Source: Candidatus Uhrbacteria bacterium
GTDB taxonomy: Bacteria; Patescibacteriota; Patescibacteriia; 2-12-FULL-60-25
Length of the DNA stretch: 11,305 nucleotides
Assembly (NCBI GenBank): GCA_903828685.1
Contig: CAIKNB010000139.1
Location: 1-11,305, forward strand
Direction of reading: 5' to 3'
Below are positions 1-11,305 of this stretch, one piece after another. Made by a program: the position numbers and the translations under genes. Under the pieces are notes generated by a model. It saw only the letters and a program-made list of their open reading frames with translations. It searched no databases and was not told the DNA's origin. Positions within the stretch are counted from its first letter, which is position 1, and each line of letters opens with the position of its first letter.

Positions 1-69
1 ACACAAGCAGACAACATCGCTGATTCAATAATAAAAGGACGCCAATGGTGGCAGGTGCGACGTGTCTGA
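1..69 (+). CDS. 3' end of an upstream gene (partial)
   Basis: An open frame runs from the first base of the window to a TGA at 67-69 and encodes 22 residues, TQADNIADSIIKGRQWWQVR followed by RV. It overlaps the GTG start of the next gene by 8 bases, as in tightly packed phage operons. The piece is too short to recognise a family. It is called only because the frame is open to the edge and the overlap is typical. Confidence 0.4.
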   Translation, partial: TQADNIADSIIKGRQWWQVRRV

Positions 70-811
70 CTTCCCTTATTTTCCGCTATACCCTACCGAT
101 TTACTCGGTGATGATAAAGTAATCATCCAAGACCTAACCGAATTCGGTGCTTATATGCGCCTGCTGTGCCTTGCTTGGCAACAGAACCCGCCCGCATCAA
201 TCCCCTCAGACGACGCCGTGATCGCAAAGATGCTTTGCGTCACGCCCGATGTTTGGGCACGATTGCGGCCAGCGGTTATCCCTTGCTGGCAACTGCGCGG
301 AAACAGGTTGTTTAATAAGCGTCTTAATATGGTATATCAATCCATGATTGAACGCCGCCAGAAGTATCAGAAGGCTGGAGAAAAAGGCGCGCAGCATCGC
401 TATAGCATCGCTATAGCATCGCTACAGCCATCTGGAAGTGGAGATGGAAATGGAATTAGAGATGGAGATGGAAATGCCGGAACAGATGCCGACGATCTGC
501 CACCGCTGACACCAGAGCAGCGCAAAGAGGTCAACCGGCTCCACGCATACACGCTTGAACGGTTCGGGTTGACGGCCATGGACATCAACCGTGAGCGCAT
601 ACGGGCGAACCTGTGCGAACTTCTCCAGCGCGGATACCGGCCAGAGCAGGTCGAGGAGGTTGTTGCGTGGGCGAAGTCGCCAAAGGCCGGCAAGGGAACA
701 CCGCAATCCGCCGTCTCCGCCACTGACCCGCTCAAATTCGGGCAATGGCTGACGACGATGGAGAATCACCGGAAATTCCTAGAGCAGGAGAAAGCGAGGC
801 GGAACCGATGA
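62..811 (+). CDS. DUF1376-family phage replication-type protein
   Basis: The 249-aa protein starts at GTG 62, since an in-frame TAA at 32-34 excludes longer versions; AGG at 53-55 can serve as ribosome binding site. Residues 3-105 match the DUF1376 pattern: an N-terminal FPYFPLYPTDLL, then a GAYMRLLCLAWQ helix. Such proteins usually sit in phage replication modules and resemble replication initiators with a winged-helix fold; the role here is inferred from that. Residues 113-145 are a low-complexity Ser/Gly/Asp/Asn linker encoded by 11-bp direct repeats and a purine-rich tract. Residues 146-249 form a charged helical C-terminal domain ending KFGQWLTTMENHRKFLEQEK. The stop overlaps the next start (ATGA), implying translational coupling. 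Confidence 0.8.
   Translation: MSDFPYFPLYPTDLLGDDKVIIQDLTEFGAYMRLLCLAWQQNPPASIPSDDAVIAKMLCVTPDVWARLRPAVIPCWQLRGNRLFNKRLNMVYQSMIERRQKYQKAGEKGAQHRYSIAIASLQPSGSGDGNGIRDGDGNAGTDADDLPPLTPEQRKEVNRLHAYTLERFGLTAMDINRERIRANLCELLQRGYRPEQVEEVVAWAKSPKAGKGTPQSAVSATDPLKFGQWLTTMENHRKFLEQEKARRNR
393..425 (+). repeat. Three 11-bp direct repeats inside the DUF1376 gene
   Basis: The unit AGCATCGCTAT occurs at 393, 404 and 415 (last copy ends in C). Junctions create the palindrome GCTATAGC. The unit is not a multiple of three, so gain or loss of a copy would shift the reading frame between the two halves of the protein. A strongly purine-biased stretch (about 431-474) follows directly. The layout resembles iterons placed within a replication initiator gene, as in the lambda O gene; that reading is inference. 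Confidence 0.75.
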
Positions 812-1894: not shown

Positions 1895-2021
1895 CCCCAA
1901 CGTTCAAACTCTGCCGCGCCGTCAAATAACCAAGGAGGAATCAAATGCCAATAAACCGTAACACGCCCTACGCTATCGCAACGCCGGAAGATAAGGCGTT
2001 GGCATCATCGGGTGGTTCGGC
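1895..2021 (-). repeat. Tentative degenerate attC-like site 1
   Basis: The left box CCCCAAC (1895-1901) is followed by a 5-nt spacer. A short stem pairs TGCCGCGCC (1912-1920) with GGCGT-T-GGCA (1995-2004), with one bulged T and one G-T pair. The right box GTTCGGC is at 2015-2021. The outer part of the stem does not pair, so the site itself is weak. Its right box is strong: GTTCGGCAC (2015-2023) is complementary to GTGCCGAAC (2173-2181), the opening box of the next site. The start codon of the 96-aa gene (1945) lies in its loop, as in other sites here. Confidence 0.4.
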
Positions 2022-2235
2022 ACGCGACATCGCCAAATCACTCGCCAAAACGAACGGGTGCAACTGTGACCTAGACAACTGGGAACCGGAAGCCAGCACC
2101 GGACACTCGTGGGTCTGTCGAATCCACAAGACTGCCTCAGAGCTACGAGACGAATACCTGCTGAGTCAGCCAGTGCCGAACGTGGAAGCTGACGCACGCC
2201 GCGTCGAACAACCAAAGGAGAAACATGGAAACTGA
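1945..2235 (+). CDS. Hypothetical protein (96 aa), cassette gene 1
   Basis: ATG 1945 follows a strong ribosome binding site (AAGGAGG, ending 8 bases upstream). The 96-aa product has no recognisable domain. A CNCDL...WVC..H stretch (residues about 39-61) might bind a metal, but this is speculative. The first 24 residues are encoded by the tentative attC-like site 1, so the cassette body begins around SARDIAKSLAKTNG. The stop overlaps the RNA ligase start by 11 bases, inside the loop of attC-like site 2. Confidence 0.65.
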   Translation: MPINRNTPYAIATPEDKALASSGGSARDIAKSLAKTNGCNCDLDNWEPEASTGHSWVCRIHKTASELRDEYLLSQPVPNVEADARRVEQPKEKHGN

Positions 2236-2308
2236 ATCAACCGGAGTACCGATGACCACCACACTGCCACAGGAGCAAGCGGCGTTGTCGTCCAGCGCCT
2301 TGTTAGGT
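2175..2308 (-). repeat. attC-like site 2 (96-aa gene / RNA ligase junction)
   Basis: Left box GCCGAAC (2175-2181), 6-nt spacer, stem arm GCTGACGCACGCCGC (2188-2202). The opposite arm at 2279-2296 pairs over all 15 bp if T2286, T2288 and one C (2292 or 2293) are bulged. Then a 5-nt spacer and right box GTTAGGT (2302-2308). All bulges are on the right arm. The loop contains the previous stop and, with its ribosome binding site, the start codon of the RNA ligase. Length 134 bp is within the attC range. Strand is given from bulge polarity. Confidence 0.7.
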
Positions 2309-2950
2309 GCTTTCGTGGAATTTCCAAAAATCGCCCGACTGTCGAGGGAGTGCTGGATAACAGAAAAACTCGACGGCACAAACGCGCAGGTCTGCATCAC
2401 CGAAGATGGGCAAATGCTCGTCGGTAGCCGGACGCGGTGGCTGACACCGGAGACGGGAGACAACCACGGCTTCATGCTGTGGGCGCTGACACACCGGGAC
2501 GAACTGATGACGCTCGGAGTAGGGCGACACTTCGGGGAATGGTGGGGCAGCGGAATCCAGCGCGGCTACGGACTGCCAAAAGGTGAAAAGCGGTGGAGTC
2601 TCTTCAACGTCTCGCGCTGGTGTCTGCACGGCCAAACACCGCAACGAATCGCTACCGCTGACCCGCGCATCGAGAAATATCAGGACGCGCTCCCGCCATG
2701 CTGCGGAATCGTGCCAGTGCTCTATCGCGGAATCTTCACGACCGACGCTTGCGAGGCGGCACTGGCAGACCTGAGAGCGAACGGAAGCAAAGCATCGCCG
2801 GGCTTCGGAAAGCCAGAGGGCATCGTGTGCTTCCACGTCGCCGGTAACTGCGGCTTCAAAAAGACGCTCGAAAAAGATGAAGTGCCGAAAACACTGTCAG
2901 CACCTAACGCAGACTTGAGCCGCCGAGACCAGAAATCGAGTCAACCATGA
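2225..2950 (+). CDS. RNA ligase, T4 Rnl2-like (cassette gene 2)
   Basis: The 241-aa protein carries the nucleotidyltransferase signature of the RNA ligase family: motif I EKLDGTN with K48 as predicted AMP-accepting lysine, a VGSRTRW element at 66-72, GEWWGSGIQRGYG at 104-116, RWSLFNVSRW at 123-132 (motif IIIa), KPEGIV at 196-201 (motif IV) and FKKT at 211-214 (motif V). The family seals nicked RNA using ATP through an enzyme-AMP intermediate; phages use it to repair host-cleaved tRNA. The start follows AAAGGAG. Residues 1-26 precede the fold and are encoded by the upstream attC-like site; the tail, from about 226 on, is encoded by the next one. The stop overlaps the next start (ATGA). Confidence 0.85.
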   Translation: METESTGVPMTTTLPQEQAALSSSALLGAFVEFPKIARLSRECWITEKLDGTNAQVCITEDGQMLVGSRTRWLTPETGDNHGFMLWALTHRDELMTLGVGRHFGEWWGSGIQRGYGLPKGEKRWSLFNVSRWCLHGQTPQRIATADPRIEKYQDALPPCCGIVPVLYRGIFTTDACEAALADLRANGSKASPGFGKPEGIVCFHVAGNCGFKKTLEKDEVPKTLSAPNADLSRRDQKSSQP

Positions 2951-3024
2951 AAACCAAGGCATCAAAATCTCCATCAACCGAGGCCGCGAAGCGGGTCTCG
3001 GTTGGCTCGAAGGAATTGTTCGCG
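2902..3024 (-). repeat. attC-like site 3 (RNA ligase / 92-aa junction)
   Basis: Left box ACCTAAC (2902-2908), 5-nt spacer GCAGA, left arm 2914-2930 (CTTGAGCC, G, CCGAGACC). Right arm 2994-3012 reads GGTCTCGG, TT, GGCTC, bulged G3009, AAG. Spacer GAATT, right box GTTCGCG (3018-3024). Apart from the G/TT internal mismatch the 16 bp pair perfectly. On the - strand the end box reads GTTAGGT, a perfect GTTRRRY. The overlapping stop and start codons (2947-2950) are in the loop. Confidence 0.8.
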
Positions 3025-3225
3025 CTTTGCAAGACGTGGGAGGGTGAAGGCAAGGAACTGCTCATACAGGCATCGAGTGCGCCAACGTGGGAAGGCGACG
3101 CCACGCTGCGTAATGCTGGCGTTCCCCGTATCAAATGCGCCAAAGACCTTCGTGAACTCATAAGCGCGAACGTAGAACTCACGCATGGCGGGCGTGAGGC
3201 ATCCGATTGCAAACTGAAGCCGTAA
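2947..3225 (+). CDS. Hypothetical protein (92 aa), cassette gene 3
   Basis: ATG 2947 overlaps the RNA ligase stop as ATGA. There is no clear ribosome binding site, so translation probably depends on coupling. The first 24 residues (Lys/Ser/Ala-rich) are encoded by attC-like site 3; the body starts near FALCKTWEGEGKELL. No domain recognised. The TAA stop (3223-3225) lies in the loop of attC-like site 4, so both ends of the gene are inside such sites. Confidence 0.6.
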   Translation: MKTKASKSPSTEAAKRVSVGSKELFALCKTWEGEGKELLIQASSAPTWEGDATLRNAGVPRIKCAKDLRELISANVELTHGGREASDCKLKP

Positions 3226-3254
3226 CCGCCATTGCGTGCAGTGATTTGTTAGAC
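3165..3254 (-). repeat. attC-like site 4 (92-aa / 67-aa junction)
   Basis: This is the cleanest example. Left box CGCGAAC (3165-3171), 5-nt spacer GTAGA, left arm ACTCACGCATGGCGG (3177-3191), 34-nt loop, right arm 3226-3242 reading CCGCCAT, bulged T3233, GCGTG, bulged C3239, AGT. Then 5-nt spacer GATTT and right box GTTAGAC (3248-3254). The 15-bp stem has no mismatch and only two single-base bulges, both on the right arm, and both spacers are 5 nt. Total 90 bp. Confidence 0.85.
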
Positions 3255-3283
3255 ATCAACGTAAAAACTGAAAGGAACAAAAT

Positions 3284-3487
3284 ATGGAACAAGCATGGCT
3301 GATATGGAGTAATGAACATCGTGCGTGGTGGGGGCCGGATAACAACGGCTACACCAAAAGCCGAAAAGCTGCCGGACGCTATACCCGCGCCGACGCTCTG
3401 GACATCTGTAAGGGTGCAAACTGTGCGCTGGATGATAAACAGGAACCCCATGAGACAATGCGTGCAAGATGTCTAACGGGAAGCTGA
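3284..3487 (+). CDS. Small conserved phage-type protein (67 aa), cassette gene 4
   Basis: ATG 3284 has a good ribosome binding site (AAAGGA, 8-9 bases upstream). The sequence WLIWSNEHRAWWGPDNNGYT followed by AGRYTRADALDIC resembles short hypothetical proteins common in tailed phages; function unknown. This is the only cassette gene here whose start lies after the GTT box, i.e. within its own cassette. The TGA stop (3485-3487) is in the left arm of attC-like site 5. Confidence 0.7.
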   Translation: MEQAWLIWSNEHRAWWGPDNNGYTKSRKAAGRYTRADALDICKGANCALDDKQEPHETMRARCLTGS

Positions 3488-3573
3488 TGGACAGAGACCA
3501 GCGATGAACACGCTCTCGCCAACACCCTCGATGCCCGCCGCTGGTCTCTGTTCCATCCAGCGCATGGTTGGCC
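3471..3573 (-). repeat. attC-like site 5 (67-aa / cytosine methyltransferase junction)
   Basis: Left box GTCTAAC (3471-3477), 5-nt spacer GGGAA, left arm 3483-3503 (GCTGATGG then ACAGAGACCAGCG), 35-nt loop, right arm 3539-3561 pairing over 21 bp with bulged T3552 and C3557. Then 5-nt spacer GCATG and right box GTTGGCC (3567-3573). The methyltransferase ATG at 3504 is the first loop base; an alternative ATG at 3564 is in the spacer directly before GTT. The - strand end box is GTTAGAC, a perfect GTTRRRY. Confidence 0.85.
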
Positions 3574-4445
3574 GCTGCCTCGACCTCTACTGCTGTGAAG
3601 GCGGGGCGGGAATGGGCTATGCGCTCGCGGGATGGAAAGTGACGGGCGTGGACATAAAACCGCAACCGAGATACCCGCAAACTTTCGTCCTCGGTGACGC
3701 GCTCGAATACCTCGAAGCGCACGGCAGCGAATACGACCTAATACACGCCAGCCCGCCGTGTCAGGGGTACAGCCACCTCACACCGGGAAGCCACCGCGAC
3801 AAGCACGCTCGCATGATACCGGCGGTACGCGCACTACTCCAACGCATCGGCAAGCCCTACGTGATCGAGAATGTCGCGGGGGCGCGGCACGAACTCAGAA
3901 ACCCGGTCATGCTGTGTGGCTCAATGTTCGGGCTACGCACGCGGAGACACCGCTACTTCGAGACCAACTTCCAAGTGACTGCGCCGCGCCCATGTGACCA
4001 CTCGACGCTCCCGCTACTGGTGACGACCGCCAGCAAATCGAGCCGAGAAAAACGGTACGCGCTCGGCATGAAACCGAAGACCGTGAAAAATGCACCGCTC
4101 GCATACGGCATCGGCTGGATGTCATGTGACGGACTGAAAGAGGCGATACCGCCCGCCTACACTCAGTACATCGGAACTTGTGCGGCCTGTACACACGCCA
4201 GCATGGCGCAGGTGGTGGAAACCGTACCCACCTGCATCATCCGTACCCCCGGAGGCCCGCCCGCCAAAGGCGTCCGCGAATCCCTCAAAGGCCACGGATT
4301 CCACTGGAACCCCGACGACATGCGTGGCGACCGAAACTACCCGGTGAATGCTTGGTTATTGCACCGTGTACCCGCGCCCGAACTTCCCACGTACCAGAAA
4401 TTCGCCACCGACCTCAAAATGGAGTTCGATTATTTCCCCCGATGA
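3504..4445 (+). CDS. DNA (cytosine-5) methyltransferase-like protein
   Basis: The 313-aa protein has SAM-binding motif I as LDLYCCEGGAGMGYA (26-40), the catalytic SPPCQGYS with C86, IENV (121-124), the arginine-rich RTRRHRYF (145-152) and a C-terminal AIPPAYTQYIG (214-224), the motif order of C5 methyltransferases. It is short, with little target-recognition domain. Residues 225-313 extend past the normal end with a second element (GHGFHWNP near 263-270) that I cannot assign. ATG 3504 lies in the loop of attC-like site 5; ATG 3564 (residue 21) is an equally plausible start because conserved sequence begins at residue 24. Neither has a strong ribosome binding site. The stop overlaps the next start (ATGA). 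Likely role: protection of phage DNA. Confidence 0.85.
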   Translation: MNTLSPTPSMPAAGLCSIQRMVGRCLDLYCCEGGAGMGYALAGWKVTGVDIKPQPRYPQTFVLGDALEYLEAHGSEYDLIHASPPCQGYSHLTPGSHRDKHARMIPAVRALLQRIGKPYVIENVAGARHELRNPVMLCGSMFGLRTRRHRYFETNFQVTAPRPCDHSTLPLLVTTASKSSREKRYALGMKPKTVKNAPLAYGIGWMSCDGLKEAIPPAYTQYIGTCAACTHASMAQVVETVPTCIIRTPGGPPAKGVRESLKGHGFHWNPDDMRGDRNYPVNAWLLHRVPAPELPTYQKFATDLKMEFDYFPR

Positions 4446-4969
4446 ACACAACACACAAAACAATCACGGAAATATTTCCGCCAATCCTCGACGCCTGCTG
4501 TGGTGGGCGACAATTCTGGTTCGATAAAAAAAACCCCAACGTGCTGTTTGCCGACTGCCGCATGATGCCACCCAAATTAGTCGGAAGCGGCAAGGATGCC
4601 AGGATGCGCCAATGCCTACCGGACCGTGTACACGACTTTCGAGAAATGAACTATCCAGACGAAACCTTTCAGCTTGTCGTATTCGATCCACCACATCTTT
4701 TCCTTGGCGCTAATAGCTACATGGCGCAATCCTACGGACGGCTGGACCGCGAAACATGGCGCGACGACTTGCGCCGTGGATTCTCCGAATGCTTCCGAGT
4801 CCTGAAACAAGGCGGCGTGTTGATATTCAAGTGGAATGAATGCGACGTGCCACTCTCTGAAATACTGAAATGCACACCACATCAACCGCTCTTTGGACAC
4901 CCATCAGGCAAGGCACAAAAAACGCACTGGTGCGCATTCTGGAAAATGAACGGTCGGGATCAGAGATGA
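4442..4969 (+). CDS. Class I SAM-dependent methyltransferase, DPPH type
   Basis: ATG 4442 overlaps the previous stop as ATGA; the frame is open further upstream but that part lies within the cytosine methyltransferase gene. The 175-aa product has motif I as ILDACCGGRQFWFD (15-28), motif IV as VVFDPPHLFLG (79-89) and a post-motif strand VLKQGGVLIFKWNE (120-133). DPPH/DPPY motifs are typical of amino-methyltransferases acting on adenine or cytosine N4; the substrate cannot be read from the sequence. A 14-bp palindrome (4467-4480, CGGAAATATTTCCG) lies early in the gene. The stop overlaps the MT-A70 start within attC-like site 6. Confidence 0.8.
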   Translation: MNTTHKTITEIFPPILDACCGGRQFWFDKKNPNVLFADCRMMPPKLVGSGKDARMRQCLPDRVHDFREMNYPDETFQLVVFDPPHLFLGANSYMAQSYGRLDRETWRDDLRRGFSECFRVLKQGGVLIFKWNECDVPLSEILKCTPHQPLFGHPSGKAQKTHWCAFWKMNGRDQR

Positions 4970-5042
4970 GCACAGCGCAACAGATGATGACTCTCCCTAG
5001 CGCGCCGCCGCTGTGCTCATTCTCTGCATCCCGTGGTTCGGC
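4945..5042 (-). repeat. attC-like site 6 (DPPH / MT-A70 methyltransferase junction)
   Basis: Left box AATGAAC (4945-4951). Left arm 4955-4977 (CGGGAT, CAGAG, ATGAGCACAGCG) pairs with right arm 5009-5033 over 23 bp, with bulged T5021 and C5027 on the right arm. Right box GTTCGGC is at 5036-5042. Excluding the outer two pairs, spacers are 5 nt and 4 nt. The MT-A70 ATG (4966-4968) is inside the stem, so an RNA hairpin would hide the start unless ribosomes arrive from the preceding gene. Confidence 0.8.
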
Positions 5043-5646
5043 CTTTCGGTGCATCGTAGCTGACCCACCGTGGAAATATGATGAAGGCTTCGTCGGCGGA
5101 TCGGGGCACGGAAACTGGAAGAACGTCCCCCTGCCATATCCCGGCATGAGCGTAGAAGAAATATCCGCCCTGCCGATAGCCACGCTCGCGGCGGAAGACT
5201 GCCGCCTGTGGCTGTGGACGACGAACCGATACCTACCGGCCTCTTTCGGAGTGATGCGAGCGTGGGGCTTCGAGTACCGGCAAACTCTCGTCTGGCATAA
5301 ACTCGACGCCAACCTAGGCGGCTCAGTAGCACCAAACAGCGTGGAATTTCTGCTCGTGGGCGTGCGCGGAACACCGCCCTGCAAAAAACGGCTCAAGACG
5401 GCACTGGTCGCAACCGCCCACGGGAAGCGTCACAGCCAGAAACCGACCGAATGGCACTACCTCATCGAAACGGTATGCGATGGGCCATACCTCGAACTAT
5501 TCGCCCGCCGAACACGGCCCGGCTGGCAGGTATGGGGCAACGAAGTCGAAAGCAACGTGGAGATAAGGCCGAACGGGGGAGTGGAGCGACGGGAGTCCTC
5601 TCCCGTTCGCTCGCACGACTTGTTAGAGCATTCGGAGGACAAATGA
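4966..5646 (+). CDS. MT-A70 family adenine methyltransferase (cassette gene 6)
   Basis: The 226-aa protein starts at ATG 4966, overlapping the previous stop as ATGA. It has the MT-A70 signature: CIVADPPWKY with DPPW at 33-36, LWLWTTNRYLP (about 82-92), a LVWHK strand, and HSQKP (about 161-165) followed by YLELFARRTRPGWQVWGNEV. The family transfers a methyl group to N6 of adenine; phage members modify DNA. Residues 1-24 come from attC-like site 6 and the last ~25 residues after WGNEVE are encoded by attC-like site 7. The TGA overlaps ATG 5643 of the next, interrupted gene. Confidence 0.87.
   Translation: MSTAQQMMTLPSAPPLCSFSASRGSAFRCIVADPPWKYDEGFVGGSGHGNWKNVPLPYPGMSVEEISALPIATLAAEDCRLWLWTTNRYLPASFGVMRAWGFEYRQTLVWHKLDANLGGSVAPNSVEFLLVGVRGTPPCKKRLKTALVATAHGKRHSQKPTEWHYLIETVCDGPYLELFARRTRPGWQVWGNEVESNVEIRPNGGVERRESSPVRSHDLLEHSEDK
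5568..5628 (-). repeat. attC-like site 7 (end of MT-A70 cassette)
   Basis: Compact 61-bp site. Left box GCCGAAC (5568-5574), 6-nt spacer, left arm 5581-5595 (GTG, GAGCGA, CGGGAG), TCCT loop, right arm 5600-5616 (CTCCCG, bulged T5606, TCGCTC, bulged G5613, CAC), 5-nt spacer GACTT, right box GTTAGAG (5622-5628). On the - strand the 5' arm has bulges C and A six bases apart, the same arrangement as in classical aadA-type attC sites. It lies in the last codons of the MT-A70 gene. Confidence 0.85.
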
Positions 5647-5717
5647 TAAAAGCGGGGGAACTATATACAAAGTCACCCTGCCGGGCGAATCGAAAAATAG
5701 TTCAATTTGATAGTTGA
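5643..5717 (+). pseudogene. Start of a cassette gene cut off by the transposon
   Basis: GGAGG at 5635-5639 and ATG 5643, overlapping the MT-A70 stop as ATGA, mark a real gene start. Only four native codons (MIKA, plus part of a fifth) precede the transposon end at 5656. The frame then runs into the terminal repeat and stops at TGA 5715-5717, giving a 24-residue remnant. No continuation is visible on the far side of the transposon (after 8048), so the rest of the gene and its closing attC-like site are missing. Confidence 0.65.
5656..5679 (+). repeat. Left terminal inverted repeat
   Basis: The 24-bp sequence begins GGGAACTATATAC and ends AAAGTCACCCT. It is identical, in reverse complement, to 8025-8048. 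The GGG outer end fits IS1595-type termini. Confidence 0.92.
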
Positions 5718-5742
5718 CAACCCCGCCGTGATCCTGTATATT
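5714..5742 (+). promoter_or_regulatory. Transposase promoter with internal GATC, leaderless
   Basis: Perfect -35 TTGACA (5714-5719), 17-bp spacer, -10 TATATT (5737-5742). Transcription should start around 5749, which is the A of the transposase ATG, so the message would have little or no leader. A GATC sits in the spacer at 5730-5733, where Dam-type methylation could affect promoter activity. Confidence 0.75.
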
Positions 5743-5748
5743 GCCACC

Positions 5749-6684
5749 ATGAAAACGGGAATGGGATTCAAGAGCCTGACAGAGTTCGTTGACCACTTCA
5801 AAGACGAGGCAACATGCCGGGAGCATTTCGCTAAGATTCGGTTTCGTGATGGCGAGTATTGCCCGCACTGCGGCCATTCGGAAATCTATCGGTTCAAGAG
5901 CGGGGCGCGGTATCGTTGCGCAAAGTGCAAAGTGGACTTCACGATCAAGACGGGCACGGTTTTCGGTGAAAGCAAGTTGCCGTTGCGGAAGTGGTTCATC
6001 GCAATTTATTTGCTTTCCACCAGCAGCAAGGGTATTTCTTCCGTGCAGTTGGCGAAGCAAGTCGGCGTGTCTCAAAAGACGGCGTGGTTTCTGAATCATC
6101 GTATCCGGGCGGCGATGAAGCAAAACAACGGCCAATTATTCGGCAGCGTGGAGATGGACGAAACCTATATCGGCGGCCAAGAGAAAAATAAACACCGCTC
6201 CAAGCGGACAAGCGGAACACAAGGGCGCAGCGTCAAAACGAAAGTACCCGTCATTGGATTGGTAGAACGGGGCGGCGAAGTTCGGGCAGAGGCCAGCGAT
6301 AGAGTAGGGATGCGGCAAGTGGAAAAACTTATCGTGCAGCACGTCGCAATGGGTTCAAAACTTCACACGGATGATTGGGGAGCTTACTCTCACATTGGCC
6401 GATTATTCTTGCATGAGATTGTCAACCATTCGACAGGGCAGTACGCGCGACCGGGCGGCGTCCACACCAATACAATCGAAAGTTTCTGGGCACTGTTCAA
6501 ACGCGGGTTTCAGGGTGTGTATCACTCCATGAGCCGGAAGCATCTGCAACGGTACGTCAACGAATACGCTTACCGCTGGAACATCCGCCCCGGTGATCTC
6601 CAAGACGTGTTTTCCGATATGGTCAACCGGGTTTCCCAAAGCAATCAGCTTTCCTATAACCGCCTAACGGAGAAATTCGCATGA
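5749..6684 (+). CDS. IS1595-family (ISXO2-like) transposase
   Basis: The start is taken as ATG 5749, giving 311 aa; the frame continues back to TTG 5707 but that lies within the promoter. An N-terminal zinc ribbon (C38, C41, C57, C60; CPHCG...CAKC) is followed by a helix-turn-helix-like stretch (about 96-118, VQLAKQVGVSQKTAWFLNHRI) and the ISXO2-like catalytic domain: VEMDETYIGG with D137, LHTDDWGAY with D208/D209, and VHTNTIESFWALFKRG with N241 and K251, matching the DDNK arrangement of the family rather than DDE. It catalyses cut-and-insert transposition at the 24-bp ends. Length is normal and the frame intact, so it may be active. The stop overlaps the methyltransferase start as ATGA. Confidence 0.92.
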   Translation: MKTGMGFKSLTEFVDHFKDEATCREHFAKIRFRDGEYCPHCGHSEIYRFKSGARYRCAKCKVDFTIKTGTVFGESKLPLRKWFIAIYLLSTSSKGISSVQLAKQVGVSQKTAWFLNHRIRAAMKQNNGQLFGSVEMDETYIGGQEKNKHRSKRTSGTQGRSVKTKVPVIGLVERGGEVRAEASDRVGMRQVEKLIVQHVAMGSKLHTDDWGAYSHIGRLFLHEIVNHSTGQYARPGGVHTNTIESFWALFKRGFQGVYHSMSRKHLQRYVNEYAYRWNIRPGDLQDVFSDMVNRVSQSNQLSYNRLTEKFA

Positions 6685-7565
6685 GCAGACCCCGCACGAT
6701 TTTCCCGCCAATACAAGGCGGACTCGATGAAGTGCTGACGGCAATAGCTGACCAGCACAAACCAGAAAACCAGACCATCGGGGCGCGTCCGTTCCTAAAA
6801 TGGGTGGGGGGCAAGCGTTCAATACTGCCGCAACTGATTGAGCGGATGCCAGAGCAATACGGAACCTACCGGGAGACGTTTGTAGGCGGCGGCGCGCTTT
6901 TCTTCGCAGTGCAGCCGACAAAGGCATATCTGTCGGACATAAACTTTCATCTGATCCTGACCTATAGGGCAGTCCAGAACGATATTGACCGGCTCATTCT
7001 CAATCTGAAACTCCACGAAAAGAATCACGGCAAGGAATACTACCAACGAGCGCGGGAGCGACTCAGCACCGAGACGGACACGACGAAGATCGCTGCATTG
7101 GTCATCTACTTGAACAAGACCTGCTTCAACGGTCTTTACCGCGTCAACAAACAAGGCAAGTTCAACGTGCCAATCGGCTCCTATAGTGACCCGGCGCTTT
7201 TCGAGGAAGATGTTCTGCGCAATGATTCCAAGCTATTGCAGGGTGTCTCGTTGATGCAGCACCCATTTTCACAAACGCCGATTGTCCGAGAGGATTTCTA
7301 CTACCTAGACCCGCCATATCATCAAGTCTATGCACAGTATGACAGCCGTGGTTTTGGTGAGACAGAGCACAAGCAGCTTGCCGAGTTCTGTCGTGAACTG
7401 GCCGACGCCAAAGCCTACTTCATGCTCTCAAATTCCGATACGCCTTTTGTGCGGTCGCTTTTCTCCAAGTTTCATATTGAACGAATTTCGGCAGCGCGGT
7501 CGGTGTCCTGCAAGGCGCAAGGACGTGGCAAAGAAAATGAGCTTATCATCCGCAACTACGAGTAG
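6681..7565 (+). CDS. D12-class DNA adenine N6-methyltransferase, DpnM/Dam-like
   Basis: ATG 6681 overlaps the transposase stop and has GGAG at 6669-6672. The 294-aa protein follows the D12 order: FLKWVGGKRSILPQL (38-52), FVGGGALFF (67-75), a LSDINFHLI strand (84-92), NGLYRVNKQGKFNVPIGSY (150-168), the catalytic YYLDPPYHQ with DPPY at 210-213, and YFMLSN. The blocks around GGGALFF and NGLYRVN.KG.FNVP.G.Y are close to DpnM as I remember it, which methylates GATC; that specificity is likely but unproven. About 37 extra residues precede the usual start of the fold. As partner of the following nuclease it would protect DNA bearing the element. Confidence 0.88.
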   Translation: MSRPRTIFPPIQGGLDEVLTAIADQHKPENQTIGARPFLKWVGGKRSILPQLIERMPEQYGTYRETFVGGGALFFAVQPTKAYLSDINFHLILTYRAVQNDIDRLILNLKLHEKNHGKEYYQRARERLSTETDTTKIAALVIYLNKTCFNGLYRVNKQGKFNVPIGSYSDPALFEEDVLRNDSKLLQGVSLMQHPFSQTPIVREDFYYLDPPYHQVYAQYDSRGFGETEHKQLAEFCRELADAKAYFMLSNSDTPFVRSLFSKFHIERISAARSVSCKAQGRGKENELIIRNYE

Positions 7566-8031
7566 CGGCACTAGGGCAAACCAGAGCGGGAATCGCTTGG
7601 AGCGATTTGTCCAGCAGCTTTTACTGGACAAGGGCTATGCCGAATTTTGGAATCACAAGAAAACAGTCTTTGCTAATCGTGCTCTTATCGGCGGCAAGCA
7701 ATTCGTGAAGCAAGTGCCAGTTGGCGACACGATTTACGAGACCATGCGCAAGTGCGATTTCCTTGTGATCAATCACGAGAAGTTTCCCGACGGCCTGATA
7801 ATCGAGTGCAAATGGCAGCAGTCAAAAGGCTCTGTGGACGAAAAATATCCATTTCTGCTCTACAACATCATCCGCACCGGGATTCCGACAGTGGTATTGC
7901 TGGACGGCGGCGGCTACAAACCAGCCGCGTTGACTTGGTTGAAAGACATGGTCAACAAGAATGGCGCGCTGATCGGCGTCTGGACAATGGCCGAATTTCA
8001 GAAGCAAGTGAACGATGGGTTTTTAGGGTGA
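7537..8031 (+). CDS. Putative PD-(D/E)XK restriction endonuclease
   Basis: The start chosen is ATG 7537, overlapping the methyltransferase by 29 bases; AAGGA at 7519-7523 is a distant ribosome binding site. The 164-aa product has GNRLERFVQQLLLDKGY (18-34), a predicted catalytic D74 (KCDFLVIN) and IIECKW with E90 and K92, the D-ExK core, followed by YPFLLYNI and a TVVLLDGGGY strand. This is a small single-domain nuclease. Next to an adenine methyltransferase it is most simply the restriction half of a type II system. It does not resemble the full-length DpnII endonuclease beyond the core. Its TGA stop (8029-8031) lies within the right terminal repeat. Confidence 0.75.
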   Translation: MSLSSATTSSGTRANQSGNRLERFVQQLLLDKGYAEFWNHKKTVFANRALIGGKQFVKQVPVGDTIYETMRKCDFLVINHEKFPDGLIIECKWQQSKGSVDEKYPFLLYNIIRTGIPTVVLLDGGGYKPAALTWLKDMVNKNGALIGVWTMAEFQKQVNDGFLG

Positions 8032-8048
8032 CTTTGTATATAGTTCCC
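8025..8048 (-). repeat. Right terminal inverted repeat
   Basis: Perfect 24-bp reverse complement of 5656-5679. The first seven bases also encode the end of the nuclease gene, so the passenger operon is fitted exactly into the element. Confidence 0.92.
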
Positions 8049-8049
8049 G

Positions 8050-8142
8050 TCATTTATTCCTTGAACCGCGCCAGTATTCCATAGCCAATGCAATGACCGT
8101 GGCTATACAAAATAGGATGCCGATGGCGCGGCCTGTTGTCAT
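8050..8142 (-). CDS. Tiny membrane protein (30 aa)
   Basis: Reading the - strand, ATG at 8142-8140 starts two bases after the previous stop and encodes MTTGRAIGILFCIATVIALA followed by MEYWRGSRNK. Residues 5-21 form one membrane segment, with a basic C-terminus. The stop is two bases from the transposon end, so the gene is intact. Its position at the end of a late operon suggests a lysis-associated or other small membrane role; this is inference. Confidence 0.5.
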   Translation of the reverse strand: MTTGRAIGILFCIATVIALAMEYWRGSRNK

Positions 8143-8144
8143 GG

Positions 8145-8381
8145 TTATTCAGGGTCGGCGTCCAGTTTCCAACTTGGAGGCACGTCTCCGGTTAGTGCCG
8201 CCGCTTGCACGGCTTCAATGTGAGCATGAAGTTCGTTCTGGACTTCAATGGTGATGAGGCCGTCGCTGAACAGCGCGTTGATTAACTTGCGCCCCTCTTC
8301 ATAAACCGACTGCACGAATGGTTTGGCAGAGATGGCAAGGCCGATATAGGCCACGATTTGAGCTAGTAATGCTGCTGACAT
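8145..8381 (-). CDS. Small phage protein with N-terminal hydrophobic helix (78 aa)
   Basis: The start has AAGGAG seven bases upstream. Residues 4-20 (ALLAQIVAYIGLAISAK) are hydrophobic, followed by an amphipathic helix and an acidic tail ending DADPE. No family recognised. It sits between a lipoprotein and a tiny membrane protein in the - strand operon, so an envelope or lysis role is possible. Confidence 0.65.
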   Translation of the reverse strand: MSAALLAQIVAYIGLAISAKPFVQSVYEEGRKLINALFSDGLITIEVQNELHAHIEAVQAAALTGDVPPSWKLDADPE

Positions 8382-8392
8382 GGTGATTCTCC

Positions 8393-8788
8393 TTATTGCG
8401 CGGCGGTGATGGCGGCCTGTGCTGCCGTTGAAATGTTCTGAATCTCAACAAGAATGGTCTGTAATGTCGTCAGGTTGCCCGCTACGGGGTTGGCTTCGTA
8501 GATTGACCTAGCGATAGCCCAACGCTTGTGAATGTCCACGGCCTGCGGTCGTAGAGCGTCCAGCGCGTGTTTAATCTTCGGACTGACAGCCCAAAGGACG
8601 GCTCGGTTGTTTTTCTCATAGGTGAACGCGGCGTCAATCGTGGTGTAGGCGAATGAGTACGTCGCATCCAGTTTGTAGAGGGCGATATTGGACACTTGCC
8701 CGGTTGGGTAGTATGCCCCGCCTTGCTGTAGTTGCCCGGCGCACCCGATCACGGCCAAAGCGAGGACTGCGATTAGGACTTTCTTCAT
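8393..8788 (-). CDS. Phage lipoprotein (131 aa)
   Basis: The start is preceded by AAAGGAG. The N-terminus MKKVLIAVLALAVIGC is a clear type II signal peptide with lipobox AVIGC and C16 as the lipidated residue. The mature part is helical and alanine-rich with repeated aromatic/charged spacing and no recognised enzyme motif. Lipoproteins in late operons can be outer-membrane spanin subunits or exclusion factors; nothing here decides between them. Its ATG overlaps the stop of the preceding small gene. Confidence 0.75.
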   Translation of the reverse strand: MKKVLIAVLALAVIGCAGQLQQGGAYYPTGQVSNIALYKLDATYSFAYTTIDAAFTYEKNNRAVLWAVSPKIKHALDALRPQAVDIHKRWAIARSIYEANPVAGNLTTLQTILVEIQNISTAAQAAITAAQ

Positions 8789-8955
8789 TTCTTTCTCCTT
8801 TTGGTTTGAACTTGTAAGGAATCCTTAAAAGTTCGTTCTGGTTGTTCCGCCCAAAGTTTTGCCATTGTACCCCATACTGACATCAGGAACCCGGCGCACA
8901 ACAGCATGACGTACATCGGCCATTTCTTGACCCGCGTCGCTTCAATGTTGTTCAT
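8785..8955 (-). CDS. Small single-pass membrane protein (56 aa)
   Basis: ATG at 8955-8953 overlaps the previous gene's TGA (8954-8952) as ATGA, and its own TGA (8787-8785) overlaps the next ATG (8788-8786). The product starts MNNIEATRVKKWPMYVMLLC; residues 12-34 form one membrane segment, followed by a charged tail ending TKRRKK. Both junctions are coupled, which strongly supports a real gene despite its size. Family not recognised. Confidence 0.7.
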   Translation of the reverse strand: MNNIEATRVKKWPMYVMLLCAGFLMSVWGTMAKLWAEQPERTFKDSLQVQTKRRKK

Positions 8956-9215
8956 GGCGTTGTTGACGGTGGAGGTGGTTCTTCTTTTGGCACTGGCGAT
9001 TGCTTGAGATAAAAGAACATAGAGAGTGCGCCCTGCAACAAGCCGGAGACGCCAGCCATGTAAAGCGTGTTGCTGAGGTTGGTCGTCAGATTGAACTTGT
9101 CAGGTGCAATTCCCATTGCCGTCAATCCACTGACCACTCCGCCACTGAATCCACCTATCAAGGCCGCCGATAATCCCAGCAACCAGTTCCGCCAGTCGAG
9201 CATTTGAGTTACCAT
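8952..9215 (-). CDS. Holin-like protein with two membrane segments (87 aa)
   Basis: The start has AAAGGA seven bases upstream. Hydrophobic segments at about 11-35 (LLGLSAALIGGFSGGVVSGLTAMGI) and 50-70 (TLYMAGVSGLLQGALSMFFYL) are joined by a short polar loop, and the tail is proline/glutamate-rich. Size and topology fit a class II holin, but the family is not recognised by sequence. It is followed directly by the 56-aa membrane protein. Confidence 0.6.
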   Translation of the reverse strand: MVTQMLDWRNWLLGLSAALIGGFSGGVVSGLTAMGIAPDKFNLTTNLSNTLYMAGVSGLLQGALSMFFYLKQSPVPKEEPPPPSTTP

Positions 9216-9237
9216 TGTTTTGTCCTTTCGTAGCTTG

Positions 9238-9447
9238 TTATTTGACTATGTTGAAAAGTTTACTGACGATCCCGCCGCTGATCCCGCCACCGAGAAACGC
9301 AAGCCCGATGAATTTTCCCAAGCCGCGCCACGCCTGTAATTCAACCTTCATCGCCACCGGGCAGGTTGTGACGTGTTCGCGCAACACCTCGCGGGCAGCC
9401 TCTCGCGCAATCATCTTGATCTGGTCTTCGGTCAATATCGTCCCCAT
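9238..9447 (-). CDS. Small protein with coil and C-terminal membrane helix (69 aa)
   Basis: The start has AAGGA upstream. Residues 6-26 form a charged amphipathic helix (EDQIKMIAREAAREVLREHV) and residues 44-66 (GKFIGLAFLGGGISGGIVSKLFN) a glycine-rich hydrophobic helix. The layout is like XhlA-type accessory proteins of phage lysis cassettes, though no sequence match can be claimed. It lies 22 bases before the holin-like gene. Confidence 0.6.
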   Translation of the reverse strand: MGTILTEDQIKMIAREAAREVLREHVTTCPVAMKVELQAWRGLGKFIGLAFLGGGISGGIVSKLFNIVK

Positions 9448-9465
9448 ATTTTCCTTGTTGTCGTT

Positions 9466-9507
9466 CCGCCTTCTGTCTCCTGACTCCTATCTTCTGACTT
9501 CCTTCCC
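9466..9507 (-). repeat. Degenerate heptamer tandem repeat
   Basis: On the + strand the units run CCGCCTT, CTGTCTC, CTGACTC, CTATCTT, CTGACTT, CCTTCCC, about six imperfect 7-mers with consensus CTGACT(C/T). They occupy the short gap between two - strand genes, upstream of the 69-aa gene. No function is evident. Confidence 0.55.
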
Positions 9508-9508
9508 C

Positions 9509-10036
9509 TTACGGTAACACCTGCACAAAATTCGTCCCGCCCGTCCAATCCGCCCACGGATCGGCGAGCAATGAAGTGCCCAAGTCAGACAATGTTAAAC
9601 TGTCGGCTAAAATGGATATTCGTTGCGTATCAGTCGTGGCAGCACCGAGCGAAATCTGTATGCCAGCCCTCATCGCATCGCGCGTGGTGTCAACCGTGAA
9701 CCCGTACTTGGCGCACAAAGCGAGATAAGCCACCTCGTTACTCACCGTCTGTGACGGCTTATTGCGCGTCATTACCACACCCGTCGTGGTGTTGCTCACG
9801 GCCACCACGGTAGGACTCAACCAAAACTGATACAACGCATTGGTATCGTTTCCGCACGACGCGGGCGCGAGGAGTAGGGCGTTGTAAATAGCGACAACAA
9901 AAATCGAGTTAGATGTTGTCTGTGAAGCCACTATCCAAGGGAGCACCTCACTCACAGTTTTCCGTCGGGCGGGTTGAACTGCTGAAAATGCGGTGACAGT
10001 CAAAACGAGACTCAAGACCAGATATATTGTTTTCAT
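9509..10036 (-). CDS. Secreted phage protein of unknown function (175 aa)
   Basis: The start chosen is ATG at 10036-10034 because AAGGGA precedes it; an upstream in-frame start at 10072 would overlap the tail protein gene. The N-terminus MKTIYLVLSLVLTVTAFSAV is a signal peptide, probably cleaved near AVQPA. The rest has mixed polar content with no recognised domain; DPWADWTGGTNFVQVLP ends the protein. It follows the tail-fibre-like gene by 8 bases and is probably translated with it. It may be a structural or tail-associated protein, since secretion signals on virion proteins are unusual. Confidence 0.65.
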   Translation of the reverse strand: MKTIYLVLSLVLTVTAFSAVQPARRKTVSEVLPWIVASQTTSNSIFVVAIYNALLLAPASCGNDTNALYQFWLSPTVVAVSNTTTGVVMTRNKPSQTVSNEVAYLALCAKYGFTVDTTRDAMRAGIQISLGAATTDTQRISILADSLTLSDLGTSLLADPWADWTGGTNFVQVLP

Positions 10037-10044
10037 ATTCCCTT

Positions 10045-11305
10045 TCATTGCGGTAGTGCCTCTGATACCCATTGTGGATTAGCATTCCTGAAGCTGAGAT
10101 GATTGCCATTGCCAGAACTATCAACACAGTTTGTGCCCGAACCATCGTTGAGATGCCACAATGCCCGCGTATTAGCATCAGTAGTCGGGTGGCGGGTAGG
10201 GGTATAGACGTTGCCGTTTGTGTACCGCACCACCGAGGAAACTTGGAACTCACTCAACCAACCAGCCCAAGTCCAACTGAAATCGGGATAGTTTCCTAAC
10301 AAAACAGTACCGCTGAGATTGGCACTAACGAGCGTTTCACTATTACTGGCGATACACGTCCCGTCTAACCACAAAGTCGTCCCCGAAGAATCGCTACACA
10401 CAGCCGAATGATGCCAAGTATTGCTTGTAAGAACAAAAGGCGGAGATTGTAAATAAGCAGATGTCAACGGCGGGTCAGAACGCATAGATAACCCGTCTAC
10501 CCAATACCATGGTCCTATTACCCCTCCAAAAAGGTTTGCACTCAATGAGGGAAAGCCGATGTTATCTTTAATTGCAAACCAGCATGAAACCGTGATTTCA
10601 GTTAAATCTGTCCAATCAATGTTGTCAACTGCCGCTCCCTGTGCACCCAGATTCCCCGGTCCGTCGAACTGCAAACAAAACTGCGGAGGCGTCACCGTCA
10701 CCGCGCCGATTTGCGTGTTTGTGCTGACGCCGTTGACATCTGCCACGATCAACGCAATATCGAAAGTCCCCGTCGAACTGTAAACGTAATGGAACGGATT
10801 GTTGTAGATGAGGTTAGTCGTCCCGCCGTCACCAAAATCCCAAAACCGATTCGTGATTGTCCCAGTCGAGTTATCCGTAAACGTCACATCGAGCGGTGCA
10901 CTGCCATTCGTCGGCGAGAGCGAGAACGCCGCTATCGGCGGCACACCCGGTTTCGGGAACGTGATCGTCAAAGAGCCATTCAAAAAGACAACCGATCCCG
11001 TCGTCCCAACCGTCCCGCCATTAACCCAATTCGTAACAGCCAACGCGGTGGCGTTGGTGCCCACAGTGTATGCTGATTGCGCGAGCTGGGCGGCGTTTGT
11101 CCCGATAGTGTAAGCCGCGCCCGCGCTGGCGTTGGCGTTTGTCCCCACCGTGTACGCCGCGCCCGCCATGGCATTGGCGTTGGTCGAATTATCAAACGCC
11201 GTGCCCGCCGTGATACCGGCCGCGCTGGCTATCGCCGATGCGTTTGTCCCGATAGTGTAGGCCGATCCCGCTACGGTGTTAGCATTCGTTCCCACCGTGT
11301 ACGCC
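10045..11305 (-). CDS. Tail-fibre-like protein with 14-aa repeats, PKD and LamG domains (partial)
   Basis: The frame is open at the right edge, so the N-terminus is missing; 420 codons are visible. Counting from the GTG at 11295, residues 1-90 are tandem repeats of about 14 residues, such as AGAAYTVGTNANAS, rich in Ala/Thr/Asn and likely an elongated trimeric stalk. Residues about 118-202 form a PKD domain with WDFGDG (152-157), and about 205-410 a LamG/concanavalin-like domain (SCWFAIKD, TWHHSAVCSDSSGTTLWLDG, LWHLNDGSGTNCVDSSGNGN). PKD and LamG modules bind glycans or surface proteins, so this is probably the receptor-binding fibre. The repeats make it prone to copy-number change. Confidence 0.8.
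   Translation of the reverse strand, partial: AYTVGTNANTVAGSAYTIGTNASAIASAAGITAGTAFDNSTNANAMAGAAYTVGTNANASAGAAYTIGTNAAQLAQSAYTVGTNATALAVTNWVNGGTVGTTGSVVFLNGSLTITFPKPGVPPIAAFSLSPTNGSAPLDVTFTDNSTGTITNRFWDFGDGGTTNLIYNNPFHYVYSSTGTFDIALIVADVNGVSTNTQIGAVTVTPPQFCLQFDGPGNLGAQGAAVDNIDWTDLTEITVSCWFAIKDNIGFPSLSANLFGGVIGPWYWVDGLSMRSDPPLTSAYLQSPPFVLTSNTWHHSAVCSDSSGTTLWLDGTCIASNSETLVSANLSGTVLLGNYPDFSWTWAGWLSEFQVSSVVRYTNGNVYTPTRHPTTDANTRALWHLNDGSGTNCVDSSGNGNHLSFRNANPQWVSEALPQ

Follow-up and report, generated by a model that had tools for sequence, protein, structure and literature searches.

Integrons are regarded as bacterial devices that phages occasionally acquire, and clusters of attC sites lacking integron integrases (CALINs) are common in bacteria. 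The parts of Qi et al. 2023 (PMC9892861) drawn on here describe 17 CALINs and three complete integrons from phages, with methyltransferase cassettes among them, and recombination by IntI1 of five of the six phage attC sites tested. Here we analyse contig CAIKNB010000139.1 (11,305 bp; in its entirety, the window), one of 174 contigs in a 996-kb bin that is 90.9% complete. Positions 2179-5624 very probably hold six attC-type hairpins (S1 to S6, Table 1) that split a probable phage region into cassettes, likely moved by an integron integrase from elsewhere, as none was found on the contig. We also consider it likely that phages own an integron lineage, comprising an IntI family with its attI and back-to-front cassettes in which attC is 5' of the gene and the next hairpin supplies the last residues of the protein. 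Phages would use this lineage to exchange RNA ligases, anti-restriction methyltransferases and further genes, with the window as an integrase-less member fed in trans.

The array resembles the phage CALINs, which are integrase-less attC arrays in phage genomes with methyltransferase cassettes (PMC9892861, in the parts used here). A preliminary description of this DNA had held such an array in a phage to be undescribed; this claim fell, as phage CALINs and integrons are already published in that source, and what is new here is the reversed polarity. Unlike here, the same parts describe the typical cassette direction in two phages and divergent attC sites in a third. The complete integrons or In0 that they describe are of Vibrio, class 1 and Shewanella type, and they mention neither attC sites 5' of all genes nor a phage-wide IntI family. 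A limited search of the open-licence PMC literature (portions of PMC9892861, PMC3607928, PMC9668308, PMC8876359 and PMC11551772) returned no description of 5' attC sites in phage cassettes or of a phage IntI family. The 'atypical' integrons of Treponema (PMC3607928, in the portion covered) are alike in having intI and the cassette genes on the same strand, but there intI is flipped and transcribed toward attI, with the cassettes following, whereas the phages described here have flipped genes and retain the class 1 geometry of intI, attI and attC. In the phage record of Virus Rctr41k (KX853513), an IntI-like gene likewise accompanies linked attC sites, but the array has the usual polarity (genes on the + strand, extra bases mostly in the AAC arm) and intI stands before it. 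In this record (4680-10097), the gene annotated as 'integrase-like' is IntI-like and accompanies a six-site, box-linked attC array of normal polarity; KX853513 is not named in Table 1 of PMC9892861, as far as that source is covered here. Two further arrays served as controls, a class 1 integron on an Aeromonas plasmid (L183) and an array beside an IntI-like gene in an unannotated Gemmatirosa sequence (L185). They have the same attC fold and pairing boxes, and the IntI insertion is common to the IntI1 of class 1 integrons and the phage IntI. In the controls the gene stands before its attC, whereas here attC stands before the gene and the genes read toward attI.

All six hairpins that the preliminary description had called clear were present where it placed them. 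Each folds as AAC and GTT boxes around an imperfect hairpin, and its AAC and GTT limits could be located. Every site has two or three single extra bases (three in S1), confined to the GTT-side arm (6/6 sites), with a T closer to the loop and a C or G closer to the base, so the one-arm bulges noted earlier are real. A strict motif (5-6 nt spacer, 3 bp, extra base, 5 bp, extra T, 6 bp; at most one mismatch) fits five of the six sites and had no match in 400 dinucleotide shuffles of the window; S1 (2179-2304) is a looser fit with three mismatches. Stem scores of the six sites range from 21 to 40. The core box GTTRRRY is matched by GTTAGGT and GTTAGAC, and not fully by GTTCGGC, GTTCGCG, GTTGGCC and GTTAGAG. 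Six attC sites within 3.5 kb with no intI nearby place the array among the CALINs. A seventh, tentative hairpin (1895-2021) had been proposed; paired with nine AACs close by, its GTT reaches a stem score of 14 at most, and the site was rejected as a hairpin, while its GTT box stands (S0, below). An additional candidate at 4381-4521 (score 20) was also rejected: 15 hairpins scoring at least 20 occurred in eight shuffled windows, and its right arm lies inside the coding sequence of the next methyltransferase.

The strongest test, and one that is independent of folding, is the pairing of boxes. Because a cassette circle opens within one box, an inserted cassette has complementary boxes at its two ends, whereas within a single hairpin the boxes need have only AAC/GTT in common. 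The GTT boxes of S0, S1, S2, S3 and S5 are perfect complements of the AAC boxes of S1, S2, S3, S4 and S6 over 9, 10, 10, 10 and 10 nt, respectively. Five of six neighbouring pairs are thus perfect, whereas non-neighbouring pairs of these sites reach at most 7 nt, and among the window's 38,110 other GTT/AAC pairs, 15 extend to 9 nt. Together with the strict motif, this pairing bears out the identification of the hairpins as an attC-type array. One further box pair, 1352/1516 (11 nt), has no fitting hairpin and was taken as chance. The exceptional neighbours are S4 and S5, which match over 3 nt only, because the AAC-side box is broken; its intact form is found in phage G100. There, the methyltransferase cassette that matches window positions 3472-4187 (86-93% nucleotide identity) ends in GCGGCCAACG; the window retains GCGGCC and then diverges. 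We also observed that, at this lost box, the methyltransferase cassette is joined in frame to a second coding sequence (3504-4445), the two being separate in G100; the second part (4242-4455) has 70.6% identity to a different part of that phage.

A covariance model, R1, was built from eight sites of other viral contigs that were selected for perfect fit and had their loops removed. It also recovers the class 1 attC sites and the Gemmatirosa array. On the window, R1 found S6 (E 1.7e-11), S3 (7e-07) and S4 (0.002) at E <0.01, S5 marginally, and neither S1 nor S2. Sites with long loops score low, since the model was built from perfect-stem sites without loops. The sites in a further alignment (A3) were picked for zero mismatches, so its pair counts prove little. 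An Rfam search of the window gave no match at gathering scores.

The preliminary description did not include two points, namely that the sites are reversed relative to the genes and that related phages carry a full integron. The attC site sits at the 5' end of its gene, opposite to the control integrons, and belongs to the downstream gene. In both controls, when the sequence is read along the genes, attC comes after the gene and carries its extra bases in the AAC arm; the window and its relatives carry them in the GTT arm. Strand was assigned with a codon-usage score that was correct for 29/29 genes (several of these were in the training set; five from L183 were not). On the related viral contigs, all 30 clear cassettes among 55 box-linked ones were reversed (20 loci, 26 groups by nucleotide comparison). 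Loci on a skip list (copies or overlaps of others) and ties were left out before this count, and one contig (L124/L169) may be counted twice among the 55. Also outside the 30 are one 'reversed' unit within the terminase gene of L181 and links in L182 that resemble chance in AT-rich DNA. In the window, all four linked units were reversed by sign, one of them clearly, and the controls were scored as canonical in 1/1 (L183) and 5/6 (L185) clear units. Matches of R1 fall on the + (gene) strand of the window and, in three viral loci (L025, L040 and L130), on the strand that encodes the ligase or methyltransferase, while they are opposite to the annotated genes in L183 and to the scored majority gene strand in L185.

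The genes also run into the hairpins. In the window, genes end inside or beyond the following hairpin. They start within their own hairpin at S1, S2 and S4, and at S5 if the start at 4966 is used (an in-frame ATG at 4870 is the alternative); the starts lie 34 nt after S3 and 19 nt after S6, where the gene is truncated by a transposon. Across 44 reversed units scored (three from the window), the stop lay inside or past the next hairpin in 32 and the chosen start lay within the unit's own hairpin in 14, although the choice of start is uncertain. The stop codon TAA is made by the closing box itself (TAAC) in several cassettes (L006 18473, L030 10597, L108 3484 and L118 9430). The RNA ligase of the window is conserved up to approximately amino acid 228 (position 2909); its last 13 residues (229-241) lie inside S2, are thus encoded by the following hairpin, and are not common to its relatives, whose nucleotide matches stop at 2911 or earlier.

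Viral contigs yielded 288 relatives of the RNA-ligase gene, and 80 loci from this set were retained. With three loci from the bin added, 83 were scanned: 18 had box-linked hairpins and 65 had no linked boxes, with 57 box links against none in one shuffled copy of each locus. In a second locus scan, 37 of 54 loci had no linked boxes, and there were 53 links against one in the shuffled control. No linked array was detected in any of 11 MT-A70 loci, nor in 16 of 17 methyltransferase loci (the exception is L130). The nucleotide similarity of the window to the ligase loci consists of the ligase cassette, plus one methyltransferase stretch in L072. In L004, L005, L007 and L008 the match covers 2291/2300-2909, that is, from the GTT of S1 (or 11 bases earlier) to just past the AAC of S2; in L004-L008 the ligase cassette is the sole part of the window that matches, and homology ends at or beside the boxes. 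Close relatives of two window cassettes occur in terminase-bearing phages, the methyltransferase in G100 (43 kb) and the ligase in G003 (71 kb, also with a portal-like protein). Both phages have reversed arrays and neither has an IntI over the cut-off.

Comparison of related phages points to movement of whole cassettes. Contigs G004 and G005 are 67-83% identical in aligned pieces of at least 90 nt but have in common a block of two cassettes (1011 bp, two mismatches) bounded by AACG at either end, with 19/60 positions identical in the ungapped flank on each side. Flanking the array, L110 and G087, the contig of L108, are 98-100% identical for 7.4 kb to one side and 3.7 kb to the other, with no match beyond that on the intI side; L109 is 98% identical to G087 over 0.76 kb (where the L109 contig ends) and 3.7 kb. 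L108 has one additional cassette of approximately 304 bp, bounded by AACG, compared with L110. L108, L109 and L110 diverge after one common AACG and rejoin at the AAC of attI, giving three different cassette ends before attI. The block and the whole-cassette differences are cut at AAC boxes, which indicates that the moving unit is a hairpin plus the gene behind it, and the cuts were presumably made by the phage IntI. Fixed gene order in relatives and covariance scores no better than those of shuffled sequence would have spoken against integron sites; instead, relatives differ by whole cassettes and R1 finds some of the sites.

The candidate integrase is encoded by the related phages. Against TIGR02249 (curated cut-off 265 bits), the ligase contigs G004 and G005 have an integron integrase at approximately 346 bits (346.8 for G005), and that of G087 scores 354.3 bits. 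In an alignment, the G005 IntI carries the integron-specific insertion that is also present in IntI1, while the XerC/D-like enzyme of the bin lacks it. Relatives of the phage IntI were found in 25 viral loci, some of them copies. A search of the bacterial and archaeal genome collection, which detects close relatives only, returned one record, a Verrucomicrobia metagenome-assembled genome (46%), and sequences matching the L008 IntI among the collected phage records reach no more than 45% identity. We looked for attI in 23 intI loci, some of them near-copies (L119 and L122 were left out as their intI is cut off). An attI-like core similar to AACAGTGATTATCC (at most two mismatches) lies 35-65 nt before intI in 23/23 loci, preceded by 15 different boxes. 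A complementary GTT box lies within 2.5 kb upstream of the attI core in 22/23 loci, compared with 66 of 460 control AACs, and the single intI locus without a paired box has just 118 bases of upstream sequence. In the intI loci, attI and intI are found past the GTT-box side, where the genes have their 3' ends. G087 (39,440 bp) appears to be a complete phage genome, because it has a 127-bp exact terminal repeat. It encodes a major capsid protein (SU10_MCP, 158.6 bits), DnaB and a primosomal protein, is ordered array, attI, intI, and is thus a phage with a complete integron. In G005, replication genes are on the strand opposite to the array, so the arrangement of the window is not universal. A second box-linked array, away from intI and on the other strand, seems to be present in some integron phages (G087 at approximately 31.6-33.0 kb, in L177; L118 97-932).

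Several observations weigh against our interpretation. Among the linked sites outside the window, only 28/79 fit the strict motif. S5 is marginal by R1 (E 0.05), R1 does not recover S1 and S2 as sites even with E relaxed to 10, and the GTT box of S6 has no partner in the window. The strand could not be scored for 25/55 viral cassettes, which fell below the score-difference limit. No integron integrase over the cut-off was found in the window or in the whole 996-kb bin, where the only matches are XerC/D-like; the earlier remark that no integrase was in view thus extends to the entire bin. Nor was attI found in the window, where a single core match (one mismatch, at 7274 inside a Dam gene) is at chance level. 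With neither IntI nor attI, there is no sign that the window array still moves. Three flanking proteins had no relatives in viral contigs, matches of flanking proteins in phage records were only weak, and one flanking protein searched in a large protein database matched only itself.

An alternative that we consider unlikely is that this is an ordinary CALIN, the same attC array on a bacterial chromosome or plasmid that merely has phage-like genes. The contig was binned with a bacterial genome, a largely complete one, and a search of 20 window proteins gave no terminase, portal or capsid gene, although an 11.3-kb fragment is not decisive on this point. Against this, R1 matches in the bin are confined to this contig (150 of 192 candidates scored), the genes are of phage type (a primosomal DUF1376 gene, the RNA ligase and orphan methyltransferases), and the two cassettes related to those of G100 and G003 have their relatives in reversed arrays of terminase-bearing phages. 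The window, whose phage-like context the preliminary description had noted, is likely a phage region.

It is considerably less probable that the cassettes have the usual polarity, with attC at the 3' end of the upstream gene, and that the reversal is only apparent. Upstream genes do end within the hairpins, and PMC9892861, in the parts used, describes the cassettes of two phages as unidirectional, the structure most typical of bacteria. A cruder strand test based on the longest open reading frame (ORF) was also mixed, with two reversed and two canonical units in the window, and 22 reversed and eight canonical among 30 clear units of the viral loci and phage records (including L180-L182 and L184); it was replaced by the codon-usage score because it is misleading in GC-rich DNA. 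However, the same score and model read the controls correctly, mobile blocks span from one AAC to the next and include the hairpin ahead of the gene, and attI-intI lies at the 3' end of the genes. Weaker evidence comes from the window itself, where the S4 hairpin and the hairpin preceding the same gene in G100 are identical at 75/95 positions, compared with 38/60 in the gapped flank. Least probable of all is that these are translation-coupling or terminator hairpins of a phage operon, which would suit the overlap of neighbouring starts and stops within hairpins (ATGA at 2947 and 4966) but is contradicted by boxes that pair between different hairpins, and which leaves the fixed one-arm bulges and the exchange exactly at boxes unexplained.

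Under our preferred interpretation, an integron integrase supplied from another phage or from the host would act on the folded + strand. Each cassette has the form 5'-AA|C-hairpin-GTT-gene-AA|C-3', the reverse of the usual order of gene then attC. The array may be transcribed on the + strand from an upstream promoter, which we propose because it lies behind a primosomal gene on the same strand. After the last attC, the window has an IS1595-family transposon, while relatives have one cassette body and then attI-intI; the window's own intI may have been lost around the transposon insertion, or may lie off the contig.

From left to right, the window contains the DUF1376/primosomal-like gene, three more ORFs, the hairpin region, the IS1595-family transposon and minus-strand genes (Table 1). 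The sole match of a 149-aa protein at 745-1194 in a large protein database is its own copy from the same contig. The transposon starts 32 nt past the last GTT (S6), and no target-site duplication is visible in the window. Besides the transposase, it encodes as cargo a PD-(D/E)XK nuclease and a Dam-type methyltransferase, which together resemble a restriction-modification pair. A minus-strand protein at 10045-11295 has AYTVGTNANA-like repeats, PKD and laminin-G domains and a weak likeness to virion proteins, and is possibly a tail fibre.

Table 1. Sites, genes and other features of the array region in the window.
Feature	Position	Strand	Remarks
DUF1376 / phage primosomal-like protein	62..811	+	Upstream of array, same strand
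Cassette gene, 96 aa, no family	1945..2235	+	Ends within S1; no match in two family searches
S0, GTT box (GTTCGGCAC) of distal site	2015..2023	+	Perfect 9-nt complement of S1 AAC box; hairpin not supported
attC S1 with both R boxes	2173..2311	+	AAC 2179-2181, GTT 2302-2304 (limits 2179-2304); folds; boxes linked to S0 and S2
Cassette gene, RNA ligase	2225..2950	+	Starts in S1, ends in S2; Pfam RNA_ligase 49.8 bits, phrog_548
attC S2	2899..3027	+	AAC 2906-2908, GTT 3018-3020 (limits 2906-3020); strict motif; linked to S1 and S3 (10 nt each)
Cassette gene, 92 aa	2947..3225	+	Starts in S2 (ATGA overlap), ends in S3
attC S3	3162..3257	+	AAC 3169-3171, GTT 3248-3250 (limits 3169-3250); strict motif; R1 31.1 bits, 44.4 bits in bin search
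Cassette gene, 67 aa	3284..3487	+	Resembles C-terminal part of phrog_7674; ends in S4
attC S4	3468..3576	+	AAC 3475-3477, GTT 3567-3569 (limits 3475-3569); strict motif; R1 18.3 bits
Cassette gene, phage-type DNA methyltransferase (phrog_363)	3504..4445	+	Core to ~4187, in-frame fusion to second coding sequence
Remnant of AAC-side box, GCGGCC(AAC)	4182..4187	+	Former match to GTTGGCCGC of S4; AAC missing; G100 reads GCGGCCAACG here
Cassette gene, DNA methyltransferase (phrog_954)	4442..4969	+	Ends in S5
attC S5	4942..5045	+	AAC 4949-4951, GTT 5036-5038 (limits 4949-5038); strict motif; R1 13.3 bits, weak; linked to S6
Cassette gene, MT-A70 adenine methyltransferase	4966..5646	+	Start 4966 in S5 (ATGA overlap with preceding gene); runs through S6
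attC S6, last site before transposon	5565..5631	+	AAC 5572-5574, GTT 5622-5624 (limits 5572-5624); strict motif; R1 48.2 bits
IS1595-family transposon	5656..8048	+	24-bp inverted repeats 5656-5679 and 8025-8048; directly after S6

These observations describe a phage group with a reversed integron and its own integrase, in which members that match at 98-100% around the array nevertheless differ by whole cassettes, as expected if natural capture is ongoing. If true, phages would have at hand a way of exchanging methyltransferases and other candidates for counter-defence. Such cassettes would be misassigned by gene finders that expect a 3' attC. The arrangement also raises the questions of how genes that read toward attI are expressed and of what a protein gains or loses from a C-terminal tail written by the next cassette.

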